From an uncultured delta proteobacterium (GTDB lineage Bacteria; Myxococcota_A; UBA9160; JAFDET01), in assembly GCA_947259215.1 (NCBI GenBank), contig CAMYLJ010000040.1, forward strand, positions 1-61,224: 61,224 nt of DNA, read 5' to 3'. Of the stretch, positions 38,303 through 41,759 are shown piece after piece. Both the position numbers and the translations under genes were made by a program. Under the pieces are notes generated by a model, which was given only the letters and a program-made list of their open reading frames with translations, was not told where the DNA came from and did not search any database. Position 1 is the first letter of the stretch. Each line of letters begins with the position of its first letter.

Positions 38303-39588
38303 TCGCCGTAGCCCTCCGGCCAGAGCGGCAGGCGCGCCGCCACGTCGGCGACGCTCTCCTCCAGCGGGCGCGCGGTGTCGAGGACGACGCGCTCGTCCGG
38401 GGCAATCTCGTCGGGCGGCTCCCACTTGTCCCGGTACGCGGCGTAGAGGGTCTGCCAGCCGCGCGCATCCGGGGGAGCGGCGGCGTCGCGCTCGGCCAGG
38501 CGGCGGTGCGCCACGTCGGCCGCCACCCGGCACTCGACGAAGCGGAACGGAACGCCGTGGCGCTCGGCCAGCGCGCGTGCGGCCCGGCGTCGGACGGCGG
38601 TGGGAAAACCTCCGTCGAGCACGACCGGCCGGCCGGAGTCGAGGACCGCGGCGGCCGAGTCGAAGAGCACCCGGTAGGCGGCATCCTCGACGCCCGGGGC
38701 GAAGCCCTCCAGGCGCTGGGCGACGTCGGCGGGCTGGCCGGGCGCGGCGCCCGCGACGAACTCGCGCACGTGATCGCCGACGACGCGCGGCGCCGCCAGG
38801 CGCAACGCCAGCGCGCGGGCCAGCGTGCTCTTGCCGCTGGCCACGAGGCCGCCGAGCGCGACGACCGCCGGGGGGAGGAGTGGCCTGCGCGCGGTGGCGC
38901 GGGCCAGCTGGAGGTAGCGGCGCGCGTCGGCGTCCGCGCACTCGCGCTCGGAGATGGAGGCGCGCGGGTCGCGGGCCCGGCGCACGGCGCGGAGCGCCCG
39001 GGCGCAGGCACCGTCGCGCTCGTGGAAGTCCACCACCCGGTAGAGCGCGTAGTCGTCGGACTCGTCCGCGTAGGCGGCCAGCAGGCGCTCGGCCAGCTCG
39101 CTGTGGCCGCGGCTCGCGAGCTCGAGCGACGGACCGGCCACGGCGGCGCAGACGTCGCTGCAGGTCTCCCCGTCCTCGGCATCGCCCACGACGACGCGCC
39201 CGTCGTCGGCGATCCACAGCTGCGAGAGGCTCGGGGCCGCCACGCCGCAGCGCACCCGCCGCGCATCGATGCGGGCCTCGAGCCAGTCCGCGTGCGCGGC
39301 CAGAAAGCGCTCCTGGAGGGCCGCCACCTCGCGCACCGCCGCCACGGACTCGACGGCGACGCGCTCCGCCTCGGCCACCAGCGCCTTGCTGCGCGCCGCC
39401 AGCGCCTCGGGACCCGCGTGGCGGGCGGACTCGGGATCCACGGGTGCAGCGGCGTGCTCCAGTGCCAGCTGTCGGGCGAGGGCGCCGAGCTCCGCCTCCC
39501 CGAGCCGGCCCGCGGCCAGACGCGCGTCGGCCCGGTCGGCATCCGCTCGGCCAGACTCCCCCTTCGCGCGCTCGCTTCCCACCGCCAT
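38299..39588 (-). CDS. APH-like/AAA ATPase fusion lacking the kinase N-lobe
   Basis: This 429-residue protein resembles the two-domain family annotated as aminoglycoside phosphotransferase/ATP-binding protein. The C-terminal half is a small P-loop kinase: Walker A GGLVASGKST near 250, VVLDGGFPT, and a zeta-toxin-like ending. The N-terminal half contains only the C-lobe part of an APH-like kinase (WIADDGRVVVGDAEDGE corresponding to the DFE-type region). The usual first 100 or so residues with the VFL...YK lysine are missing. Upstream sequence in this frame is short and unrelated. Either the start of the gene has been lost or this is a reduced form. Coupled to the HAD gene. Confidence 0.7.
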   Translation of the reverse strand: MAVGSERAKGESGRADADRADARLAAGRLGEAELGALARQLALEHAAAPVDPESARHAGPEALAARSKALVAEAERVAVESVAAVREVAALQERFLAAHADWLEARIDARRVRCGVAAPSLSQLWIADDGRVVVGDAEDGETCSDVCAAVAGPSLELASRGHSELAERLLAAYADESDDYALYRVVDFHERDGACARALRAVRRARDPRASISERECADADARRYLQLARATARRPLLPPAVVALGGLVASGKSTLARALALRLAAPRVVGDHVREFVAGAAPGQPADVAQRLEGFAPGVEDAAYRVLFDSAAAVLDSGRPVVLDGGFPTAVRRRAARALAERHGVPFRFVECRVAADVAHRRLAERDAAAPPDARGWQTLYAAYRDKWEPPDEIAPDERVVLDTARPLEESVADVAARLPLWPEGYGE

Positions 39589-39645
39589 GCGCGGAGAATA
39601 GGGATCGCCAGGGCCCCCGACACCGCCGGCTTCCCGACAGGCTGG

Positions 39646-40101
39646 CTATCTGCTTTCAGGCGCTCCCGTCGCGGCATCGGCATCGGGAGGATGCGACCGG
39701 CAGCGGGAAGGCGCCGTCGCGAACTCCAACCAGGCGATCAGCTGGCCCCGCGCGCCGGGCTCCGGCACGCCGGCGTAGGTCATGTGGGTTCCCGGGACGA
39801 AGCCGGGCGGATCGCGCAGGAAGGCGTCGAGGCTCTCGGGACTCCAGACGATTCCGGAGCGCCGCATCGCCTCGGAGTACGGGAAGCCCGGGACCGTGCC
39901 TGCCCGGCGACCGAAGAGCCCGCAGTGCCGGGGTCCCACGCGGTCGTACTCGATCGCGTGGCAGGCGAGACAGCGACCGTAGACGTCCCGACCGGCATCC
40001 AGGTCGGCCGCCTGCATCGGGTCGCCGTTCGCGGCCAGCGCAGCCGCGAGGGCTGCGCTGGCGACGACGATCGCGGCTCCCAGCGCCGCCGCGCGCTTCA
40101 C
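39646..40101 (-). CDS. Periplasmic class I cytochrome c
   Basis: This 151-residue protein has a signal peptide (GAAIVVASAALAAALAANG). The haem-binding motif is CLACH and the axial methionine is in GTHMTYAGV. Text such as YDRVGPRHCGLFGRRAGTVPGFPYSEAM matches the cytochrome c2-like small mono-haem class. It shuttles electrons in the periplasm. The ATG overlaps the stop of the ferritin-like gene by 4 bases (ATGA), so the two are co-translated. The C-terminal 15 residues are Ala/Asp/Pro-rich. It is the second gene of the operon read leftward from the ECF promoter pair. Confidence 0.92.
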   Translation of the reverse strand: MKRAAALGAAIVVASAALAAALAANGDPMQAADLDAGRDVYGRCLACHAIEYDRVGPRHCGLFGRRAGTVPGFPYSEAMRRSGIVWSPESLDAFLRDPPGFVPGTHMTYAGVPEPGARGQLIAWLEFATAPSRCRSHPPDADAATGAPESR

Positions 40102-40685
40102 GAGACGAAAGCGACCGGCACCGGATTCTCCCCGAGGACGTAGCGCAGCACCGACCAGTGCATCGCCTCGTCTCCGAGGATGCTCGCCGCAGCCTTCGCC
40201 AGCTCCCGGTTTCCGAAGAGCGGCACCGCTCCCAGGTACGCGCTCACCGCACCCTTCTCGAGACCGGCCGCGAAGCGCAGCACGTCCGTCTGGCTCTGGA
40301 ACTGATCGACCGGAAAGGCGTAGCTGGCTCGAGGCTCCGCCGCCGTGCCCTCGAGCGCGCGCACGGTCCTGGCGAGCAGCGCGATGTGCTCCTTGTGGTG
40401 GCCCTGGAACTGGAGCGCGAGATCGAGCGCATCCTGCGCGAGGAGACCGCTCTCGGCACCCACCTGGTAGGCCGCTACAGCCTCGTGCTCAGCGGCCAGG
40501 GCCGTGTTCAGAATGCGTGCGTCTGCCGACGGATCTGCGGCACGCGCCTGCCGTGCTGCCAACAGGCCCGGCGCTCCCGCCAGCAGGCCGACGGCCACCG
40601 CCGAGAGGGTCGCACCGCCGCCTGCGAGCACGCTCCGGCGGGAGACGCGAGTCGCGGCGGGAAGAACGGAAGGGGACTTGCGCAC
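40098..40685 (-). CDS. Tat-exported ferritin-like protein
   Basis: This 195-residue protein begins with a twin-arginine signal (SRRSVLAGGG, then a long Ala/Leu stretch). The mature part is four helices with carboxylate/histidine pairs typical of ferritin-like proteins: AEHEAVAAYQ, HHKEHIALLA, EKGAVSAYLG and GDEAMHWSVL. A di-iron or di-manganese centre is expected; Tat export fits folding and metal loading before secretion. A role in oxidative-stress defence is inference. GTG 40685 has GAGGAGGAA upstream. It is divergent from the ECF sigma gene across a 134-base region holding mirrored promoter motifs, and is coupled to the cytochrome c gene. Confidence 0.88.
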   Translation of the reverse strand: MRKSPSVLPAATRVSRRSVLAGGGATLSAVAVGLLAGAPGLLAARQARAADPSADARILNTALAAEHEAVAAYQVGAESGLLAQDALDLALQFQGHHKEHIALLARTVRALEGTAAEPRASYAFPVDQFQSQTDVLRFAAGLEKGAVSAYLGAVPLFGNRELAKAAASILGDEAMHWSVLRYVLGENPVPVAFVS

Positions 40686-40737
40686 GGGAGTTCCTCCTCT
40701 GGGCTCTGGCGCCCTCCAGCGGGCACCGTCACCATCG

Positions 40738-40762
40738 GACGGGGCGCGATCCGAAAGGTTCC
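40738..40762 (-). promoter_or_regulatory. Predicted ECF sigma promoter for the ferritin-like/cytochrome operon
   Basis: On the minus strand GGAACC (40757-40762) is followed after exactly 15 bases by CGTC (40738-40741), close to the -35 GGAAC and -10 CGTC/GTC consensus of many ECF sigma factors. The ferritin-like GTG is 50 bases further on. The plus-strand twin has the same boxes and spacing. Confidence 0.65.
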
Positions 40763-40774
40763 CGGGAACCTTTC
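40753..40774. promoter_or_regulatory. 22-bp perfect palindrome between divergent promoters
   Basis: GAAAGGTTCCC (40753-40763) is followed directly by its exact reverse complement. The palindrome contains both opposed GGAACC -35 boxes, two bases apart. It could arise simply from placing two -35 regions back to back, or could also bind a dimeric regulator. It lies in the 134-base gap between the ferritin-like and sigma-factor genes. Confidence 0.8.
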
Positions 40775-40789
40775 CGGCGCTCGCGCGTC
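40765..40789 (+). promoter_or_regulatory. Predicted autoregulatory ECF sigma promoter
   Basis: GGAACC (40765-40770), 15 bases, then CGTC (40786-40789) precede the sigma gene start at 40820 by about 30 bases. The arrangement mirrors the minus-strand promoter. It suggests that the sigma factor transcribes its own gene and the divergent operon. Confidence 0.65.
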
Positions 40790-40819
40790 CATCGGGGAGA
40801 ACCGATGCACGGAGACCCC

Positions 40820-41497
40820 ATGGAGCCGTTTCCGCCCCTCCCCGCGGCCGACCTCGGCCTGAGCGACGAGGAGGTCGTCGCCCGCGTGCGGGCGGGCGAA
40901 CCCGCGCTCTACGAGATCCTGATGCGCCGCTACAACCAGCTCCTCTACCGCTCCGTGCGCTCGATCCTGCGGGACGAGGGAGAGGTCGAGGACGTGCTCC
41001 AGGACGCCTACCTGGCCGCCTTCCAGCATCTCGACGACTTCGCAGGCCGCTCGCTCGTCTCCACCTGGCTGGTACGGATCGCGATCAACAAGGCCCTCGA
41101 CCGCCTGCGGCGCAGCTCCCGGCTGGTGGGTCTCGACGGCTGGCCGGAGGAGGACCTCGTGGCCCAGTCCCCCCCGCTCCCGGTCCGACCCGACCCGGAG
41201 GCCCAGAGCTCCGCCCGCGAGCTTGCGCGCCTCCTCGCCGAGGCGATCGACGTCCTCCCGGCGCGCTACCGCGCCGTCTACATGCTGCGCGAGGTAGAGG
41301 GTCTCGACACGCGGGAGGCCGCGGCCTGCCTCGATCTGCCGGAGGCCACCGTGAAGACGCGTCTCCACCGGGCTCGAGCTCGCCTGCGCGACGAGCTCGA
41401 GCGCTTGGCAGGCACGTCGGCGGGCGAGACCTTCAGCTTCGGTGCCGGTCGCTGCGACGCCCTCGTCGCCCGCGTGCTCGCACGCATCACGAGCTGA
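40820..41497 (+). CDS. ECF-type RNA polymerase sigma factor
   Basis: This 225-residue sigma factor has region 2 (YEILMRRYNQLLYRSVRSIL, EDVLQDAYLAAFQ, VSTWLVRIAINKALD) and region 4 (LPARYRAVYMLREVEGLD, then TREAAACLDLPEATVKTRL) with the usual arginine-rich helix after it. Regions 1 and 3 are absent, as in the extracytoplasmic-function group. ATG 40820 is preferred to ATG 40805 because GGAG lies 5-6 bases before it. No anti-sigma factor gene is adjacent; the divergent ferritin-like/cytochrome c operon takes that place. About 30 extra residues follow region 4 and end with a Cys. Control could be by transcription level, by an unlinked anti-sigma, or by the tail. Confidence 0.92.
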   Translation: MEPFPPLPAADLGLSDEEVVARVRAGEPALYEILMRRYNQLLYRSVRSILRDEGEVEDVLQDAYLAAFQHLDDFAGRSLVSTWLVRIAINKALDRLRRSSRLVGLDGWPEEDLVAQSPPLPVRPDPEAQSSARELARLLAEAIDVLPARYRAVYMLREVEGLDTREAAACLDLPEATVKTRLHRARARLRDELERLAGTSAGETFSFGAGRCDALVARVLARITS

Positions 41498-41525: not shown

Positions 41526-41759
41526 CTAGGCGGTCAGGTAGAGGAACTCCTCCTGCACCACCTTGCCGTTCTTGATGGTGTAGAGGCCCACCTCGTTCAG
41601 CCGCATGCGCTGGCCGCTCGGCTTGTTGGTGACGTCCATGTCGAAGTGGACCACGAACTGGTCGACACGGTGGCCGCAGAAGGGGCCGGTGGCCTGGTTC
41701 TTGCCGACTTCGATTGCGGACGACAGGGGGGTCTCCTCTTCTGGGTTGCGGGCGGGCAT
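41526..41759 (-). pseudogene. SnoaL/NTF2-like fragment (C-terminal part)
   Basis: The 77-residue frame ends with VDQFVVHFDMDVTNKPSGQR, then MRLNEVGLYTIKNGKVVQEE, which look like the last three strands of a SnoaL/NTF2-like fold. The N-terminal helix and the pocket-forming first strands of this usually 110-140 residue family are missing. The start region (MPARNPEEETPLSSAIEVGK) has no good ribosome site. It lies 21 bases after the PPOX gene stop, on the same strand. It is best read as a remnant, but a short functional relative cannot be excluded. A complete SnoaL-like protein is at 50823-51299. Confidence 0.5.

Follow-up and report, generated by a model that had tools for sequence, protein, structure and literature searches.

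The 61,224-nucleotide stretch of DNA analysed here (hereafter the window) carries a perfect inverted repeat between the gene of an ECF sigma factor and a divergent operon for a ferritin-like protein and a cytochrome c, and this locus raises the questions of whether the repeat places both transcription units under the same sigma factor and of how an ECF sigma without a partner anti-sigma is held off. A base-by-base check shows the repeat, GAAAGGTTCCCGGGAACCTTTC at 40753-40774, to equal its reverse complement at 22 of 22 positions, and the flanking bases (C/C) end the palindrome at 22 bp. It consists of two extended -35 boxes set back to back, with GGGAACCTTTC on either strand, so that GGAACC lies at 40765-40770 on the plus strand, facing the sigma gene, and two bases away at 40757-40762 on the minus strand, facing the ferritin-like/cytochrome operon. 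On both strands a spacing of 15 bases leads from GGAACC to CGTC, which we predict from the pattern and its conservation to be the -10 box of the sigma-gene promoter (40786-40789, plus strand) and of the operon promoter (40738-40741, minus strand). The palindrome, the box coordinates and the spacing had all been described in the initial annotation of this DNA, and all proved exact.

The sigma factor and its divergent partners

The sigma gene (40805-41497, plus strand) starts at either ATG 40805 or ATG 40820, both being possible. As the predicted transcription start of the plus-strand promoter (about 40796) lies only about 9 nt upstream of ATG 40805, the start site or the gene start may differ from the positions given. 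The 230-aa product matches PF04542 and PF08281 (regions 2 and 4) above cut-off, as expected for an ECF (group IV) sigma-70 factor, which has both regions in some 200 residues and no large additional ones, and its fold matches include E. coli sigmaE. It belongs to the family NF008888/PRK11922, scoring 251.5 bits over residues 19-229 against a curated cut-off of 204; the NF008888 model has no described function, and a literature search for PRK11922 by name found no paper. The protein ends in a C-terminal extension of about 30 residues, FSFGAGRCDALV, whose single invariant cysteine, Cys217, is present in 39 of 39 aligned sigmas and lies near the start of a confidently modelled helix (residues 214-229). 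All 39 scanned sigmas that form a trio with the ferritin-like and cytochrome c genes match NF008888 including its C-terminal part, while sigmas of the window's class that fall under the NF008888 cut-off match the model only to about position 200 and thus appear to be without this extension. Directly downstream of the sigma gene, on the minus strand (41526-41759), a 77-aa ORF resembles by eye the C-terminal part of a SnoaL-like protein and is possibly a gene remnant.

On the other side of the palindrome, the first gene of the operon (40098-40685, minus strand) encodes a Ferritin_2 protein (PF13668, 115.6 bits against a cut-off of 24.7) with the twin-arginine signal SRRSVLAGG at its N-terminus, which predicts Tat export. 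Its structure model is four-helix, and six residues (E66, H97, H100, E143, E173 and H176, protein numbering), invariant in 33 homologues, would constitute a putative six-ligand dinuclear metal site. The closest solved relatives in sequence and fold are the ferritin-like metabolite phosphatases RvFeMP-1, from a tardigrade, and DRB0118 (PMC11616004; PDB 8kce, 8w9k), which likewise hold a dinuclear site in a four-helix bundle. RvFeMP-1 is the best fold match, and in a profile alignment most of the six putative ligands fall on its metal ligands. Four of the six positions agree in kind and two differ, Glu90 of RvFeMP-1 aligning with His97 here and Asp135 with Ala146; His176 may add a ligand. Identity to RvFeMP-1 and DRB0118 is about 25%, and phosphatase activity is only putative for the family described here. 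The start of the second gene (39646-40101, minus strand) and the stop of the ferritin-like gene share 4 bp, which suggests translational coupling; the second gene encodes an exported mono-heme cytochrome c (CLACH). Its similarity to Cytochrome c-550 CycA (NF043008) stays under the cut-off (85.5 bits against 240) and its CxxCH is invariant in 27 homologues, so that this mono-heme cytochrome c belongs to a different subfamily.

Spread of the trio and conservation of its predicted promoters

A genome scan for the ferritin-like family yielded 80 loci, mainly in Alpha- and Betaproteobacteria, to which the two copies present in this genome were added (82 in total). The gene pair is well kept in these relatives: 71 of the 82 loci have a sigma gene close by, on the side or strand expected (64 upstream and co-directional, 6 divergent and 1 downstream), and about 79 have a cytochrome c. 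The combination of an ECF factor with an exported ferritin-like/cytochrome pair, presented in the initial annotation as an unfamiliar arrangement, is therefore kept by dozens of Alpha- and Betaproteobacteria, most often in the form of a co-directional operon. Our literature searches found no paper on the trio or on PF13668 combined with a sigma factor; the group may already stand in the 2021 ECF re-classification. A plasmid search for annotated homologues gave five matches, with sparse annotation. Few genomes of the window's class have the trio, which occurs twice in this genome and in two others (G009 and G079, the latter locus being L074/L100) among 91 genomes, a distribution that probably reflects horizontal spread or frequent loss. 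The next commonest neighbour family, at most 15 loci, is a calcineurin-like phosphoesterase. This metallophosphoesterase gene (L028:4949-5707 and up to 14 other loci) is worth recording because the ferritin-like protein has a phosphatase as its closest relative of solved structure.

The second copy in this genome (contig C1, about 14.3-16.4 kb; L009 9288-11447) comprises the whole module, with a mirrored element at C1:14993-15044 that contains the identical palindrome and precedes paralogous sigma, ferritin-like and cytochrome c genes. The sigma and ferritin-like proteins of the two copies are 87-88% identical and the cytochromes 76%. Homology extends over 2.2 kb at 82% identity (window 39299-41494), ends on both sides and takes in the start of an AAA_33 kinase gene, cut to about 99 codons in the second copy, beyond which the flanks are different. 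This sequence comparison identifies the second copy as a duplicated or acquired block rather than a second strain; with a match of only 2.2 kb at 82%, two differing flanks and an estimated contamination of 0.82%, we rejected assembly contamination as unlikely. Between the copies, 30 of 30 box bases are identical, as compared to 69 of the 89 other intergenic bases (20 differ; Fisher p = 0.003).

The reading of the boxes as ECF-type promoters is supported by conservation in independent loci. In a de novo dyad count over the 67 other sigma upstream regions, made with no prior motif, the top pair was GGAAC-N17-CATC, found in 31 of them. Of 69 loci, 52 have the pattern GGAAC/GTAAC/GTCAC-N16/17-[CG][AG]TC[CTG]A ahead of the sigma gene, as compared to 0.26 when dinucleotides are shuffled and 2 for the reverse strand; under this pattern, the box pair is absent from the remaining 17. 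Divergent loci, which provide the strongest test because each gene there requires a promoter of its own, carry a box pair before both genes in six out of six cases, that is at all twelve promoters, including those of the two paralogous copies, which are not mutually independent and leave five independent divergent loci. Within each of these loci both sides carry one and the same -35 variant (GTCACC twice in L046, GGAACG twice in L061, and GGAACC twice in the window, L009, L047 and L074), and the variant tracks the sigma tree, with 17 changes against 35.1 when shuffled. Such agreement within loci and with the tree would be predicted from a reading of both promoters by the adjacent sigma. What is kept in relatives is hence the boxes and not the palindrome, which the other four divergent loci do not have: counted from first base to first base, the two -35 boxes are 3 apart in both copies here, but 40, 48, 77 and 251 apart elsewhere. 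In most co-directional loci, a clear second promoter ahead of the ferritin-like gene is missing. Orphan ferritin-like genes, with no sigma gene adjacent, were dropped as candidate regulon members because a clear box pair is mostly missing before them, L024 and L038 being the exceptions.

Readings of the mirrored element

Could the inverted repeat and the short box matches be coincidental in high-GC DNA? Taken alone, the bare pattern would allow it. GGAACC-N15-CGTC, with which the initial annotation had proposed to define a regulon, gave 23 matches in the 5.7-Mb genome and is thus no commoner than its reversed control (28), for which reason we abandoned it for that use; moreover, a GGAACC/CGTC pattern with a spacing of 13-18 reached three matches in 20 of 100 shuffles of the window. 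However, the extended pattern GGAACNTTT-N12/13-CRTC, likewise scanned by pattern matching only, has four matches in the same 5.7 Mb and its reversed control has none, the four being the mirrored pairs of the window and of the second copy. These counts, the divergent loci, the conservation of the boxes over distant loci far above shuffles and their sparing from substitution between the copies refute chance in practice, and we give it next to no credence. An inverted repeat that is perfect over 22 bp and lies between divergent genes also has the usual look of a dimer operator, and since the palindrome is fully conserved between the two copies, it might mainly serve some other, dimeric transcription factor as the site from which both genes are repressed or activated. 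We consider this improbable, as the repeat is wholly accounted for by two extended -35 boxes, the single-box GGAACCTTT is also seen in co-directional loci, where it forms no palindrome, and no regulator gene recurs beside the trio; the palindrome was dropped as a conserved operator because the four other divergent loci, with box pairs 40-251 bp apart, do without it. The palindrome is the mere appearance of two -35 boxes placed back to back and, as far as the compared loci indicate, a local fusion of two promoters limited to this genome's two module copies.

Both promoters might instead be real but served by one or several other ECF sigmas, the adjacent sigma being only one of the target genes. 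Different ECF groups do have overlapping promoter boxes, many ECF factors are probably encoded in the genome (29 candidates at a first look), and a CGTC -10 box is common to the ECF26 sigmas of S. meliloti (PMC6527743). Against this speak the -35 variant, equal at both promoters of a locus and in step with the phylogeny of the adjacent sigma, and the restriction of the extended sites to the two module copies, and we regard service by a different sigma as unlikely. It is probable, judging from these sequence patterns, that the adjacent sigma itself reads both promoters, which would make the module positively autoregulated.

If the adjacent sigma does read both, it would guide RNA polymerase to a pair of nearly identical promoters with a common palindromic -35 region, one reading into the sigma gene and the other into the operon for the Tat ferritin-like metalloprotein and the exported cytochrome c. 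Two RNA polymerases could hardly fit on -35 boxes that are two bases apart. The overlapping promoters are consequently expected to compete, and mutually exclusive occupancy is more plausible than simultaneous initiation; with probably one promoter occupied at a time, sigma synthesis would be tied to output. Of the simultaneous autoregulation and output control that had initially been predicted, the wiring is supported by the box pairs before both genes in every divergent locus, whereas simultaneous firing is unlikely. The overlap offers a natural case in which to measure autoregulation against output competition, and the trio as a whole presents itself as a compact, portable regulon whose promoter code is open to testing and goes with the sigma factor throughout the Proteobacteria.

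Control of the sigma factor

No anti-sigma gene adjoins the sigma gene in the window, where the neighbours are AAA_33, PNPOx-like, luciferase-like and DUF4389 genes, and no anti-sigma family recurs beside the trio in the homologous loci, in agreement with what had been noted at first. This sets the trio apart from the ECF26 sigmas RpoE1/RpoE4 of S. meliloti, which go with the sorT-sorU-azu operon, a CGTC -10 box, a GGAAT(A) -35 box and a downstream anti-sigma partner (PMC6180224, PMC6527743). The two systems are alike in that an ECF sigma controls itself (as it would here) together with exported redox proteins including a cytochrome c, and in the -10 CGTC, but the module in the window has GGAACC as its -35 box, no adjacent anti-sigma and a ferritin-like output. 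We rejected an assignment to ECF26, given that two defining features, the downstream anti-sigma partner and the GGAAT(A) -35 box, were not found and only the -10 agrees. A further parallel comes from plasmid p2 of Acidithiobacillus sp. AMEEHan (L103), on which an ECF sigma likewise lies beside a related ferritin-like gene; unlike the trio sigmas, it is shorter, without the C-terminal extension, and has an RskA-like (RskA_C) anti-sigma partner. This cluster appears to be an independent wiring and suggests that ferritin-like genes were recruited repeatedly by ECF systems.

Sigmas of the CorE type, with a cysteine-rich domain and CXC motif, and of ECF41, with a SnoaL-like domain (PMC8999054), share with the trio sigma the combination of no anti-sigma partner and a C-terminal extension, from which that of the trio sigma differs in its length of about 30 residues and its single invariant cysteine. 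The likeliest control point would be the sigma itself, sensing oxidative or metal stress through this extension. Cys217 is a candidate sensor for such self-sensing, which we put forward tentatively; control by an unlinked anti-sigma factor is possible as well, and an oxidative or metal signal is our best guess. If this one-cysteine extension were the sensor, it would be unusually small for an ECF factor. In the full picture, which is decidedly speculative, the NF008888 sigmas of the trio would be self-sensing, with the invariant cysteine replacing an anti-sigma, and would respond to oxidant or metal by driving a widespread and undescribed envelope defence whose components are a ferritin-like metalloenzyme and the cytochrome c that belongs to it, and in this lineage, the fused promoters would make each activation yield either more sigma or more output.

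In the window's class, NF008888 sigmas above the cut-off that have no adjoining ferritin-like gene sit by other exported or redox proteins. One of them (L105) has as neighbours a sulfite-oxidase-like molybdopterin enzyme together with a cytochrome c-like protein; the neighbour of another (L109) is a cytochrome c-like protein. A third such arrangement was observed in genome G024 (L106), where an NF008888 sigma is flanked by an Fe/Mn superoxide dismutase gene on one side and a DUF4142 gene on the other, and the box-like sequence GTAACC-N15/16-CGTC stands before both the sigma gene and the DUF4142 gene.
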